A DNA stretch of 38,430 nt from an uncultured Clostridia bacterium (GTDB taxonomy: Bacteria > Bacillota > Clostridia > Oscillospirales > Acutalibacteraceae), in NCBI GenBank assembly GCA_944380845.1, contig CALWIU010000072.1:1-38430 (forward strand), given 5' to 3'. A program made the position numbers and the translations under genes. Positions within the stretch are counted from its first letter, which is position 1. Each line of letters opens with the position of its first letter. Positions 1 to 3,052 of the stretch are shown in pieces. The notes under the pieces are model-generated. The model saw only the letters and a list, made by a program, of their open reading frames with translations. It did not search any database and was not told where the DNA came from.

Positions 1-297
1 GACTCCAAGATTTGCAGCATAGGCCTTCTGCGTCAGTTTCTGAGACAAGCGCCTCTCTCGAATCTGCCGTCCCTGATCATGGTATAAAAATAGGTTGTAG
101 TCATCCAGCAAGCTTTCGATAGGGACATCGTACATCCCGGCAAGCTTCTGCATATGCTCGATCGGATAGTAGTCCCGGCCATATTCTTCATAACGCATGT
201 AGGTTTTCTGATCGATCCCGATCCGGTCCGCGACCTCGCTCTGAAGCAGGGCGTGCCTGTATCGGTACCACCGGAGCTTGTCCGCAATCTGCGTCAT
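1..297 (-). CDS. Tandem helix-turn-helix (XRE-type) DNA-binding protein, partial at the left edge
   Basis: At least 99 codons run off the left edge of the window. Residues about 1-60 form one XRE-type helix-turn-helix (LLQSEVADRIGIDQKTYMRY), followed by PIESLLDDYN. A second begins near residue 78 (RQIRERRLSQKLTQKAYAAN), so two HTH domains stand in tandem. Proteins of this kind are DNA-binding regulators, often of mobile elements, but the target is unknown. The ATG at 297 was chosen because the first HTH starts there; its ribosome binding site is poor. The same frame stays open upstream to about 579, with an ATG at 423, a GTG at 540 and a CHLCGH motif, so the protein may be longer and overlap the sigma fragment at 501-845. 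It lies just beyond the break in that sigma gene, which fits residence in an inserted element. Confidence 0.6.
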   Translation of the reverse strand, partial: MTQIADKLRWYRYRHALLQSEVADRIGIDQKTYMRYEEYGRDYYPIEHMQKLAGMYDVPIESLLDDYNLFLYHDQGRQIRERRLSQKLTQKAYAANLGV

Positions 298-500
298 TTC
301 CGAGGGGTCTGAAAAGCGAAGATTGAATATCTGGGCATCCAGAAATTTCCTTGGGGCAAGCAGCGGGAAATGCAGAATGATCAGCGGGGATACTTCTATT
401 TTGTATGATATATTGCGTATCATGACATACCTGTGTCCGCATAGGTGACAGAACACGCTCCATTTTTCGCAACATGATGCGAAGTTTTCGCCACCAAATT

Positions 501-845
501 TTATTTGTTCCGTTGTGATAGTATTGCATTTTCTATACACCGTGCAGCGTAGGTTGCAAGACGCGCCCCTTTGTTTGGGTCAAAGGTATGCACCCCTTTG
601 ATCAGACCGATGGTGCCGATGGAGATCAGATCGTCCTGCTCGTTTTCATCGGCATAGTATTTTTTGATGACATGAATCACCAGCCGCAGGTTGTGCCGTA
701 CCAGCAGCTTTTCTGCATCCTCATCGCCGGATGCTTTGCGCTGCAAAAGATTGGATTCTTCTTCTTTCGTCAGTGTTTTTGGCAAAACACCGTAATCACT
801 GATATGCAGCGCCAGACAGATCCAGTCGGAAAGGAAATCCAGCAT
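501..845 (-). CDS. sigK: N-terminal fragment of a SigK-like sporulation sigma factor
   Basis: This 114-residue reading frame matches the N-terminal part of late sporulation sigma factors of the SigK group: a hydrophobic start, HNLRLVIHVIKKYY, then DDLISIGTIGLIKGV (region 2, core binding and -10 recognition) and RLATYAARCIEN. After RCIEN only nine unrelated residues follow before a stop; the rest of region 2 and all of regions 3 and 4 are absent, and a full family member has roughly 230 residues. The start is firm: AGAGGTGG lies 6-7 nt before the ATG. In B. subtilis and C. difficile the sigK gene is interrupted in this part of the protein by the skin element, which is excised in the mother cell. 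The fragment could thus be one half of a developmentally split gene, or simply a pseudogene. As it stands it could not recognise a -35 element. Confidence 0.75.
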   Translation of the reverse strand: MLDFLSDWICLALHISDYGVLPKTLTKEEESNLLQRKASGDEDAEKLLVRHNLRLVIHVIKKYYADENEQDDLISIGTIGLIKGVHTFDPNKGARLATYAARCIENAILSQRNK

Positions 846-1168: not shown

Positions 1169-1212
1169 AAAAAAGCCTTCTGTATCAGAAGTTCTGATAC
1201 AAAAAGCTTTTT
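1169..1212 (-). terminator. Intrinsic terminator behind the split tRNA-Ala
   Basis: A perfect 10-bp stem TGTATCAGAA/TTCTGATACA (1181-1190 and 1192-1201) with one spacer base is flanked by AAAAAGC/GCTTTTT (1170-1176 and 1206-1212). Read on the minus strand it ends in GGCTTTTTTC. It lies immediately after the 3' end of the tRNA piece at 1214-1272, so it is probably the original terminator of that tRNA gene. Confidence 0.8.
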
Positions 1213-1213
1213 A

Positions 1214-1272
1214 TGGTGGAGATAAGCGGGATCGAACCGCTGACCTCTTGACTGCCAGTCAAGCGCTCTCCC
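1214..1272 (-). pseudogene. 3' part of a disrupted tRNA-Ala(GGC) gene
   Basis: Read on the minus strand this holds GGGAG of the D loop, the 3' side of the D stem, an anticodon arm CTTGA-CTGGCAG-TCAAG (anticodon GGC, alanine), the variable loop, the T arm (AGCGG/CCGCT on the plus strand at 1225-1229 and 1237-1241) and the acceptor strand TATCTCC followed by A and CCA. The 5' acceptor strand and the 5' half of the D arm are missing here. They are found 1.7 kb away at 2990-3011. Joined, with one copy of the shared GGGAG, the two pieces give a 76-nt tRNA whose acceptor stem GGGGGTA/TATCTCC pairs throughout (two G-U pairs). The gene has therefore been cut in its D loop by the segment 1273-2989. 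Confidence 0.88.
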
Positions 1273-1280
1273 GATACAGG

Positions 1281-1294
1281 CAGAAACGCACCCC
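1281..1294 (+). repeat. Left inverted repeat of the tRNA-Ala insertion
   Basis: CAGAAACGCACCCC, the exact reverse complement of 2965-2978. It starts 8 bp inside the left border; the bases outside it (GATACAGG) do not match the right border. Confidence 0.8.
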
Positions 1295-1393
1295 CTGTTC
1301 TCCACTTCAAGCTTTAAAAAACTCTTCGATCACAAAACGGTACAGCTATAATACATACTAATATTTTCTGCATTATCAGCAAGTGCATAAAAG

Positions 1394-2710
1394 TTAAAAA
1401 CTTTTTGCTTTTAAAGGCTTGTAAAATATCGGTTTTTTCTCACCGGCTTTAACCATTTCACGTGCAAGTAACTCTCTCATTTTTCTTAAGGCATCAAGGT
1501 ATTCTTTATCATTTACAAGGTTACGTCTTTCGTCAGGATCATTTTTCAGGTCATATAAAAAATCATCATAATAAATCCGTGCGCTGTGTTTTATATTTCC
1601 CGGTCCGAGTGCTTTGGCAGAATACTTCCAATCCTTTGTGCGTACTGCCCTGCCGACTTGTGATTCACTGATCTGAATAAAAACACAATCTCTTTCAGGA
1701 ACATCTGTCCTGTTAACAGGAAGAATATTTCCGGAACAGGCTTTCGGTATCTCAATTTCTGCAAGACTCAGAAGTGTAGGGGGAATGTCGATAAGACTGA
1801 CAAGACAATTCATAATCTCGCCTTTATCTACAGCACCGCCACCAAAAACAAGGGGTGTATGTATACTCGAATCGTGACAGCTGCGTTTATATTCGGCATT
1901 TCGTGTTTTAAAATGACAACCGTGGTCACTTGTGTAGACAATAACCGTATTATCATACTGATCTTTATCCTTCAAAGCTTTAACAAGCCTTCCGACATTT
2001 TCATCAAGGGAATGAATAGCAGCGAGATAATCGGGATACTCTTCTTTGTAATTGCCCTTAAGAAATGTTAAATCCTCCGGCAAAGGATAGTCACGAAAAT
2101 CATCAACTTTATCTGTTGGTCCTTCAAAATGACCTCTGTCATTCTGGTGATGTGGCTCAAGCTGTGAAACAAACATAAAGAAAGGCTTTTCACCGCTATG
2201 GTTATTTACATATTCAACCGCAAAGTCATTTATACAATCCGCTCTGTAACCCTTAAAATCAATCCGATTACCGTTACCGTCAAAAACATATCCGTCATAA
2301 CCGTGTGAGGTAAACTCCAGAACATCTGCCGCACGCCAGTATTTATAACCGCCTTGTCTTTCCTTAGGAACAGCTGTTTTTTCGCAATGAACACCGATGC
2401 CTGCATAACGGTCTGAAGCAAGATGCCATTTTCCGATATACGCTGTATCATAGCCGTTTTCATTAAAATAATCAGCTAAAGTTTTTGTATCTTCTTTCAA
2501 AGCAATCCCGTTCCAATAGCAACGGTTTTCAGTTGCAAACTGACCTGTCTGCAAACAGGCACGGGCAGGGCCGCAAACCGGCTGGCAAGTAAAAGAATTC
2601 TCAAACAGCACTCCTTCTTCTCCTAATTCCCAGACATTAGGCATCAGGTTACTGTTCAGAGTGTCCCAGCGTTGTTGATCGGAAAAATATAAAATAATAT
2701 TAGGCTTCAT
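1394..2710 (-). CDS. Sulfatase of the alkaline-phosphatase superfamily, Cys type
   Basis: A 438-residue type I sulfatase that would hydrolyse sulfate esters, for instance on host mucin or glycosaminoglycan sugars; the substrate cannot be told. The metal-binding start reads NIILYFSDQQRWDT. The formylglycine signature is CGPARACLQTG near residue 55, with Cys as the modified residue. GKWHLA near residue 100 and TSDHGCHF near residue 270 are further family motifs. Cys-type enzymes need an anaerobic sulfatase-maturating radical-SAM enzyme, and none is in this window. There is no signal peptide, so the protein should be cytoplasmic. The start at 2710 has AAGGAG 6-7 nt upstream; a start 27 nt earlier lacks this. 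A promoter at 2772-2800 serves it. It is the only protein gene in the insertion and is AT-richer than the neighbouring genes. Confidence 0.88.
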   Translation of the reverse strand: MKPNIILYFSDQQRWDTLNSNLMPNVWELGEEGVLFENSFTCQPVCGPARACLQTGQFATENRCYWNGIALKEDTKTLADYFNENGYDTAYIGKWHLASDRYAGIGVHCEKTAVPKERQGGYKYWRAADVLEFTSHGYDGYVFDGNGNRIDFKGYRADCINDFAVEYVNNHSGEKPFFMFVSQLEPHHQNDRGHFEGPTDKVDDFRDYPLPEDLTFLKGNYKEEYPDYLAAIHSLDENVGRLVKALKDKDQYDNTVIVYTSDHGCHFKTRNAEYKRSCHDSSIHTPLVFGGGAVDKGEIMNCLVSLIDIPPTLLSLAEIEIPKACSGNILPVNRTDVPERDCVFIQISESQVGRAVRTKDWKYSAKALGPGNIKHSARIYYDDFLYDLKNDPDERRNLVNDKEYLDALRKMRELLAREMVKAGEKKPIFYKPLKAKSF

Positions 2711-2771
2711 TTTTTTCTCCTTAATATTTATTAACATTATCTGTATATCCGTCAGATGTATTACAGTAAAG

Positions 2772-2800
2772 ATTATAACACAAATATATCAGCATTTCAA
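2772..2800 (-). promoter_or_regulatory. SigA-type promoter of the sulfatase gene
   Basis: On the minus strand TTGAAA (2800-2795), a 17-bp spacer and TATAAT (2777-2772). The leader to the start codon is about 55 nt and contains a short ATCTG/CAGAT inverted repeat. Confidence 0.75.
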
Positions 2801-2813
2801 TAAAGCCATATAT

Positions 2814-2848
2814 AATAAAACTCCGCACACTAATGTGTACAGAGTTTT
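2814..2848 (-). terminator. Intrinsic terminator of the intact tRNA-Ala
   Basis: Stem AAAACTC/GAGTTTT (2817-2823 and 2842-2848) with an inner ACAC/GTGT pairing. On the minus strand it follows the tRNA's CCA end directly and runs into TTTTATTATA. It separates the tRNA from the sulfatase promoter. Confidence 0.75.
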
Positions 2849-2923
2849 GGTGGAGACGGTCGGGATCGAACCGATGACCTTCTGAATGCCATTCAGACGC
2901 TCTCCCAGCTGAGCTACGCCCCC
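2848..2923 (-). tRNA. tRNA-Ala, anticodon GGC
   Basis: A complete 76-nt cloverleaf with encoded CCA: acceptor GGGGGCG/CGTCTCC (two G-U pairs), D stem GCTC/GAGC, anticodon arm TCTGA-ATGGCAT-TCAGA, T stem ATCGG/CCGAC. It reads GCC alanine codons. It lies inside the insertion that breaks another tRNA-Ala of the same anticodon, and has the same pattern of G-U pairs in the acceptor stem but a different anticodon stem. It therefore appears to replace the broken gene. No clear promoter of its own was found; the consensus promoter at 3024-3052 reads towards it. Confidence 0.93.
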
Positions 2924-2964
2924 ATAAAAGGGTACATCGAACAATTTATTTATATAGTTTTTGT

Positions 2965-2978
2965 GGGGTGCGTTTCTG
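2965..2978 (-). repeat. Right inverted repeat of the tRNA-Ala insertion
   Basis: GGGGTGCGTTTCTG, the exact reverse complement of 1281-1294, 11 bp inside the right border. Confidence 0.8.
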
Positions 2979-2989
2979 AGTGCTTCTCG

Positions 2990-3011
2990 CTCCCAGCTGA
3001 GCTATACCCCC
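2990..3011 (-). pseudogene. 5' part of the disrupted tRNA-Ala(GGC) gene
   Basis: Read on the minus strand: acceptor GGGGGTA, TA, D stem GCTC and D loop AGCTGGGAG, after which homology to tRNA stops. It completes the 3' piece at 1214-1272. The 5' end lies about 6 nt from the expected transcription start of the promoter at 3024-3052. Confidence 0.88.
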
Positions 3012-3023
3012 ACGCCACTGACT

Positions 3024-3052
3024 ATTATATAACAGGTGCTTTCGTTTGTCAA
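3024..3052 (-). promoter_or_regulatory. Consensus SigA promoter of the split tRNA-Ala
   Basis: On the minus strand TTGACA (3052-3047), a 17-bp spacer and TATAAT (3029-3024), a perfect consensus. Expected start near 3017, just before the tRNA 5' end at 3011. Since the insertion, this promoter reads into the inserted segment and towards the intact tRNA-Ala. Confidence 0.88.

Follow-up and report, generated by a model that had tools for sequence, protein, structure and literature searches.

The 38,430-nt stretch of DNA considered here (the window) is positions 1 to 38,430 of contig CALWIU010000072.1 in GenBank assembly GCA_944380845.1, from an uncultured Clostridia bacterium of the Acutalibacteraceae. 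Its tRNA-Ala(GGC) gene is interrupted in the D loop by 1,717 bp of DNA (1273-2989) lying between two copies of CTCCC. The insert is very probably (at about 0.87) a cargo-only, that is, non-autonomous, member of a family of elements that are integrated by a large serine recombinase (LSR), take the D loop of tRNA-Ala genes as their target, and replace the whole tRNA.

Read along the minus strand (Table 1), the locus runs from the host promoter through the host 5' half, the right arm of the element, a 41-bp spacer and a complete tRNA-Ala(GGC) to a terminator-like stem, a sulfatase gene, the left arm, the host 3' part and the host terminator. An initial annotation of this DNA had recognized the two parts of the host gene with the CTCCC that they share, the size of the insert, the perfect promoter on one side and the terminator on the other; all of these stand, and ARAGORN calls a 76-nt tRNA-Ala(GGC) when the halves are joined. 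What lies inside the insert had escaped it: the intact tRNA, a pair of inverted arms, and the sulfatase open reading frame (ORF). The arms are perfect over 14 bp (1281-1294/2965-2978) and are placed 8 and 11 bp inside the ends of the insert; as a pattern allowing at most 2 mismatches they give 2 matches, against a mean of 0.27 in shuffled sequence. Arranged around the 5-bp core they form an attP-like layout that spans 52 bp, both arms and the core included; the attP of an LSR is typically about 50 bp long. The sulfatase is the only long ORF of the insert, and there is no LSR, relaxase or tyrosine integrase among the long ORFs (short ORFs were not searched against family libraries). (A technical note: an ARAGORN call of tRNA-Thr at 1214-1309 is discarded, since it is made of the host 3' part and element sequence; the only tRNA given by Rfam is at 2851-2923.)

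Table 1. Features of the interrupted tRNA-Ala locus, in order along the minus strand, with the loci that share the bracketing repeat described in the text
Feature	Position	Strand	Remarks
Host tRNA promoter, TTGACA-17-TATAAT	3024-3052	-	12/12 match; aligned in empty-site relatives; now upstream of broken 5' half and element tRNA
Host tRNA-Ala 5' half, 22 nt, ending GGGAG	2990-3011	-	
Common core CTCCC, right junction (attR)	2990-2994	unassigned	
Right element arm, containing 14-bp arm 2965-2978	2965-2989		same arm in other genomes
Complete replacement tRNA-Ala(GGC) on element	2848-2923	-	ARAGORN and Rfam
Terminator-like stem behind replacement tRNA, 14 pairs	2817-2848	-	
Promoter-like site upstream of sulfatase gene, TTGAAA-17-TATAAT	2772-2800	-	11/12 match
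Cargo sulfatase gene, 447 aa	1394-2737	-	PF00884, 151 bits
Left element arm, containing 14-bp arm 1281-1294	1273-1294		same arm in other genomes
Common core CTCCC, left junction (attL)	1268-1272	unassigned	
Host tRNA-Ala 3' part, cut off from its promoter	1214-1272	-	
Host tRNA terminator, 20 pairs	1170-1212	-	
tRNAs with bracketing inverted repeat	L073, L074, L078, L081, L115, L118, L119, L133, L139, L150, L154, L155, L164, L173		

That DNA has been dropped into a normal tRNA-Ala gene is borne out by two genomes of the same genus (G003 and G004), in which the flanking sequences of the window join at a single unbroken tRNA-Ala. BLAST segments of the two flanks overlap there by exactly 5 bases, and the host halves, rejoined with a single CTCCC, are identical over 76/76 nt to the intact tRNA of either genome. 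The promoter aligns in both, the terminator in G004. An empty site between spoIID and a sigma-factor fragment had been predicted: the unbroken tRNA is in place, with spoIID on its promoter side in both genomes, and the other side of the prediction is taken up below. (In G003 an open frame, L026 2152-3027 on the minus strand, lies between the intact tRNA-Ala and spoIID and is absent from the window; the interval thus varies between relatives.) Could the locus instead be a degenerate tandem pair of host tRNA-Ala genes, broken by deletions, with the sulfatase an unrelated neighbor? Two similar tRNA-Ala sequences do lie within 1.7 kb, but the single intact tRNA-Ala beside spoIID in the two relatives speaks against this, as do the recurrence of the sulfatase together with the left end elsewhere and the low GC content of the insert (39.6%, vs. 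50.6% for the window); the probability of such an origin is close to nil.

The tRNA gene had been taken to be simply destroyed. That view is not supported, because the insert supplies a complete tRNA-Ala(GGC) behind the host promoter. This copy lies 66 bp past the host 5' half, points the same way as the host gene and scores 55 bits with Rfam. Element and host tRNAs are equal at 63/76 positions and differ at 13. As far as the assemblies and a pattern search can tell, no intact Ala(GGC) gene exists besides that of the element: the genome of the window (87% complete) has two exact matches to an Ala(GGC) anticodon-arm pattern, one in the broken 3' part and one in the element tRNA (matches with 2 mismatches are taken as chance, and a strongly divergent Ala(GGC) gene would escape). 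The same pair accounts for the two exact matches in G333 (97% complete); the other tRNA-Ala found by BLAST in the genome of the window has anticodon CGC. A third exact match is present in G302 (C26). The simplest reading would be that the host promoter transcribes the replacement tRNA, since that promoter is a 12/12 match and a promoter scan of the interval from the host 5' half to the element tRNA came up empty.

Judged by pattern and flanking sequence, the arms, the cut point and the replacement tRNA of this element recur in other Clostridia/Oscillospiraceae genomes. The arm pattern has 28 matches in 23 of 300 genomes of the family: by flank reading, 7 are left and 7 are right junctions at tRNA-Ala (the two of the window included), and 14 lie away from any tRNA. 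Five other right-junction stretches were fetched (L073, L074, L078, L080, L081), and each has a full tRNA-Ala, in the same orientation, inside its innermost right end. Scanning one genome each of 84,980 species yields 46 matches, spread over 41 stretches. Of these matches, 19 are left and 21 are right junctions at tRNA-Ala, together on 35 stretches, and 6 are judged to be chance (5 typed "other" and L171, which the script had typed as a left junction). All 35 junction stretches are titled Clostridia, Oscillospiraceae or Ruminococcaceae, and 28 of the titles name sheep, goat, buffalo or deer gut. In IMG/VR the pattern occurs in 12 stretches, none of them at a tRNA by flank reading, and the sulfatase has no relative there.

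Which enzyme puts these elements in place? Two larger elements, one in G181 and one in G333, share a 531-aa serine recombinase whose copies are 93% identical. The G181 protein scores above cut-off for PF00239, PF07508 and PF13408 (resolvase, recombinase and zinc-ribbon domains). It also matches the NCBIfam CcrB model, at 83 bits and so far below the cut-off of 900, a likeness to the CcrA/CcrB recombinases of staphylococcal cassette chromosome (SCC) elements; SCC elements use a different target gene. The LSR is present in 32/300 genomes of the family (E <= 1e-60), 26/394 of the order (1e-120) and 10/391 of the class (1e-100). Family and order searches provide 55 LSR loci (30 plus 25 new ones; another 9 and 3 matches, listed with no locus, are uncounted), two of which, L190 and L210, are one contig with one junction. 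A tRNA broken in the D loop is found at 42 of the 55 in the stretch scanned, and at 38/55 with the same small flanks as were used for a control; the end of the LSR gene lies within a few hundred bases of the junction at many loci. (Ten loci blank at small flanks were rescanned in a larger stretch, from which L083, L085, L086 and L093 among the 42 come; the automatic count of 44 also included L084, whose tRNA is intact and has a variant T loop, and L101, whose piece ends in the T arm, and these two were removed.) The control, tyrosine-recombinase loci of the same family, gave an automatic count of 1/20, read as 0/20 because the single match, L228, continues as tRNA past the anticodon. Eleven loci from the class-level search, read by eye, add 8 D-loop breaks, 2 loci with only an intact tRNA (L237, Pro; L246, Asn) and 1 with none (L238).

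The recombinase also appears to know its tRNA. Mapped onto a maximum-likelihood tree of 50 LSRs, labels for the target (Ala-GGC, Ala-CGC, Asn or Lys) require 4 changes, the minimum being 3; shuffled labels require 23.2 on average and 0/200 shuffles are as low, with the reservation that near-copies inflate clustering of this kind. (The tree holds 50 of 70 LSR loci. Excluded are the 13 without a readable break, L210, L235, L236, L237, L238, L241 and L245; L241 and L245 are left out despite their breaks, and L246 is labeled Asn from an adjacent intact tRNA-Asn.) This agreement fits an LSR that would itself choose the tRNA. Integration by a tyrosine integrase, as in most known tRNA-gene islands (PMC4383910), has only a slim chance of being correct here. 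Such an integrase does lie just beyond the displaced tRNA 3' part in G333 (L075 7705-8817, minus strand), outside the element; against it stand the contrast between 0/20 (automatic 1) and 42/55 D-loop breaks, the prediction of target by the LSR tree, and a shared core of only 5 bp. Tyrosine integrases generally share a longer core than that.

The short target duplication had been read initially as a sign of transposition, and that reading is not supported. A small DDE-type transposon, or a miniature inverted-repeat transposable element (MITE), that had picked up a tRNA as cargo would account for the 5-bp direct repeat, the 14-bp inverted arms and the lack of an LSR inside the window copy. However, the perfect arms are set back from the very ends, and the 5-bp repeat belongs to the tRNA sequence. 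Insertions in many genomes fall at one position in tRNA genes, a fixed target that disfavors transposition. The sole long ORF encodes a sulfatase, and an LSR accompanies the same sites; the chance is slimmer still than for a tyrosine integrase. Recurrence at one place in the D loop, linkage to the LSR and the agreement of its tree with the target make site-specific LSR integration the best reading.

Virus, phage and plasmid collections were also searched with the recombinase. In IMG/VR it is found on one contig, with a tRNA-Ala 3' part beside it. A phage collection has 17 matching records; among the 10 listed, 3 are at 38-51% identity and the rest at 25-27%, and in two of those three (L235 and L236) a motif scan gave no tRNA piece. 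A plasmid collection has 5 matching records, of which Ruminococcus albus 7 pRUMAL02 has a 44% LSR beside a tRNA-Asn 3' part.

Has the element of the window moved? The sulfatase element is present in five further records at 94-98% identity, L136 (= G024), L139, L151, L159 and L162, and the tRNA 3' part adjoining its left end differs in every record: it has. In L151 and L159 the D loop of the tRNA carried by the sulfatase element holds a further left end, so that this tRNA serves as the next target. These copies bear on the possibility that the insert is a dead relic: an LSR element that later lost its recombinase, with a replacement tRNA that is unneeded because its codons are covered by another tRNA. 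The window copy has no LSR, and LSR 3'-end remnants in G165, G302, G024, G219 and L139 (the last three by eye) show decay elsewhere. On the other hand, near-identical cargo-only copies with different flanks favor continued movement, and the element tRNA scores as intact, the pattern search having turned up no other intact GGC copy. A dead relic is unlikely, though not negligibly so. The last codons of the LSR gene are kept at L025 ~5024 and L078 ~14952, and its last part at L076 ~15460; the remnants suggest that exchange or deletion of cargo may recur near the end of this gene. In G181 (L079 1632-1707) and G266 (L113 8265-8340) the tRNA flanking the LSR on one side is intact and has no 5' half ahead of it; the right junction looks to have been lost by recombination of a 5' half with the replacement tRNA.

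The proposed mechanism of site-specific LSR integration is as follows. The LSR would act on two sites: the attP of the element, in which a short core lies between two inverted arms, and an attB within the 5' part of a tRNA-Ala gene. Recombination between them, at a core that for the window locus would be GGGAG of the D loop, would split the host gene. Transcription from the host promoter would then run through the 5' half and the arm into the full replacement tRNA, to be released by processing, and the original 3' part would stay behind at the far end of the element. Lacking an LSR, the window copy must have been moved by one from elsewhere, and we infer that this was supplied in trans. Since the replacement tRNA has its own D loop, it would provide the next attB, and elements would accrete, each adding one 5' half near the promoter.

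Accretion leaves a record. G271 has three 5' halves ahead of one intact tRNA. On a 2.28-Mb contig of G464, three broken 5' halves (1304681-1304905) precede an intact tRNA-Ala (1304975-1305050), and three 3' parts without 5' halves follow, with T loops at 1345260, 1367920 and 1375100; the contig has three LSR genes of the clade and one distant serine recombinase. One 5' half and one 3' part for each insertion is what the accretion model predicts. The third 3' part starts slightly differently from the other two, its D-loop side reading GTGAGGTCAC, and a second intact tRNA-Ala at 1304577 means that the element copy is not the sole one in G464. In G383 (L257, contig position 155677), a tRNA-Ala(GGC) 3' part starts at the anticodon arm instead of the D loop, which suggests that another integrase also uses this kind of gene.

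Several observations weigh against the account given above. The sigma fragment of the window is not found in the 4.2-kb stretches of G003 or G004, so that only one flank of the empty site is conserved. The genome of the window (87% complete) has no LSR match at E <= 1e-60. At 13 of the 55 LSR loci the fetched stretch has no D-loop-broken tRNA: L084, L092 and likewise L207 have an intact tRNA-Ala, the piece in L101 ends in the T arm, and the others are blank, some of them at contig ends. No replacement tRNA-Asn was found on the element side within the sequence read for pRUMAL02 (~42 kb), G278 (~30 kb) or G673 (~18 kb); the tRNA-Asn branch does show the D-loop break, and whole-gene replacement is therefore claimed for the Ala branch only. 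(A tRNA-Asn call in G848 overlaps the junction and is judged spurious; that contig ends after ~3 kb and is uninformative.) Nearly all of the genomes are metagenome bins. Finally, in equilibrium folding the 3' acceptor strand of the replacement tRNA prefers the stray 5' half to its own 5' strand as a pairing partner at 13/18 loci, the window included, and formation of the correct tRNA is thus not assured by sequence alone. The cell would have to handle this cost, perhaps by folding during transcription. The adverse folding and the single conserved flank lower confidence slightly.

One conceivable remedy, a protective hairpin in which the right arm sequesters the stray 5' half and lets the replacement tRNA fold, is unsupported. 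Mean acceptor pairing is 0.14 with natural and 0.08 with shuffled arms (natural higher at 10/18 loci), mean pairing with the stray half 0.56 and 0.64, respectively; the arm-plus-half hairpin lies below the shuffled mean at 18/18 loci, yet 2-28 of 100 shuffles are equally low at each. (Twenty-two loci were entered and 18 folded; L073, L081, L115 and L137 were missed by the script's rule.) Among 28 tRNA-Ala genes (29 loci entered, none obtained in L160), 14 are bracketed by a 14-15-nt inverted repeat scoring above all 100 shuffles (Table 1), and all 14 stand behind a broken 5' half. A T run follows 13/14, and six different stem sequences keep their pairing, one with a G-U pair; the repeat looks like a terminator stem with a tRNA in its loop. 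The window copy has no downstream bracketing arm, and its own terminator-like stem is in that place.

The cargo varies. In the window element it is a sulfatase (PF00884); a 4,988-bp element of G332 encodes two proteins, one with a treble-clef zinc finger and one with DUF4062 and a weak P-loop match, and PADLOC returned nothing for either; the element of G333 encodes a TIR-NACHT protein, with weak PADLOC matches to TIR proteins; and that of G181 has, with its LSR, ParB, relaxase and NikA-like genes. Like the window copy, the G332 copy has no recombinase among its long ORFs. Beyond the element, the window has its own curiosity: sporulation sigma-K is apparently split, with 501-845 (minus strand) corresponding to profile positions 9-116 and G000:C5:857-1210 to positions 109-226 with one internal stop, an arrangement that we take to be reminiscent of the skin-type interruptions of sigK. 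A protein resembling XRE-type regulators (1-423, minus strand) adjoins the sigma-K half in the window.

How does this compare with what is known? In the literature consulted, serine integrases at tRNA genes are described as rare or unknown. One source calls such use rare, with mycobacterial actinomycete integrative and conjugative elements (AICEs) at tRNA-Leu and phage phiRSM1 at the 3' end of tRNA-Ser as examples (PMC3218068); enzyme type and kind of target are alike, but the available text describes neither entry at the D loop nor a carried whole tRNA. Nearest in enzyme and in accretion are the ssrA islands of Dehalococcoides with DsiB, a 540-residue serine recombinase that was compared with CcrB and has a ParB-domain gene beside it: insertion is inside an RNA gene with a tRNA-like part, islands stand in tandem, and 15 have no integration module (PMC3146451). 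Unlike these, the target here is the D loop of tRNA-Ala (of Ala-CGC, Asn and Lys genes for related LSRs), and a whole tRNA gene is carried. Classical tRNA-gene islands, as collected with Islander, likewise split the gene, restore its function from the element and leave a displaced fragment at the far end, but they cross over in the anticodon loop, the T loop or at the T/acceptor junction, and use an attP with a tRNA fragment and a tyrosine integrase (PMC4383910). In place of an attP fragment that rebuilds the gene, the present junction shares 5 bp and a separate full tRNA lies 66 bp inside; no tyrosine integrase is among the ORFs of the window element, and the larger elements have the LSR. Serine-recombinase integrative and mobilizable elements (IMEs) of Firmicutes share the single recombinase, the very short direct repeats and insertion inside a gene, but the genes they disrupt are described as dispensable (PMC5704250), while here a tRNA gene is struck and a full copy supplied. 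An IME combines an integrase with a relaxase; the G181 element has genes for both, the window copy for neither among its long ORFs. Tycheposons (PMC10872708) also bring cargo to tRNA genes; their enzyme is a tyrosine recombinase. D-loop integration with a carried whole tRNA was not found described in the literature searched, which included these five sources and PMC12884075; most subscription journals lay outside the search, and this is weak evidence of absence.

Entry at the D loop with replacement of the whole gene thus looks like a new variant of serine integration at tRNA genes: the breaking of an essential gene is met by bringing the whole gene instead of restoring an end of it. It explains the stray tRNA 5' halves that stand beside intact tRNA genes, offering a countable record of past insertions, and it provides candidate integrases with predicted attB sites in gut Clostridia. 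One can tentatively go further, with a proposal that is rather less than even odds: a widespread clade of Clostridia serine integrases may enter essential tRNA genes (Ala-GGC, Ala-CGC, Asn, Lys) by a cut in the D loop, and at least its Ala branch may exchange the host tRNA for a full-length allele of foreign origin, driven by the host promoter. The cell would then depend on a tRNA owned by the element, and any loss other than exact excision should be lethal. The tRNA would serve as an RNA-gene lock that stabilizes the element and as a gate renewed for the next element, spreading foreign tRNA alleles together with cargo such as sulfatases and TIR/NACHT-type genes.

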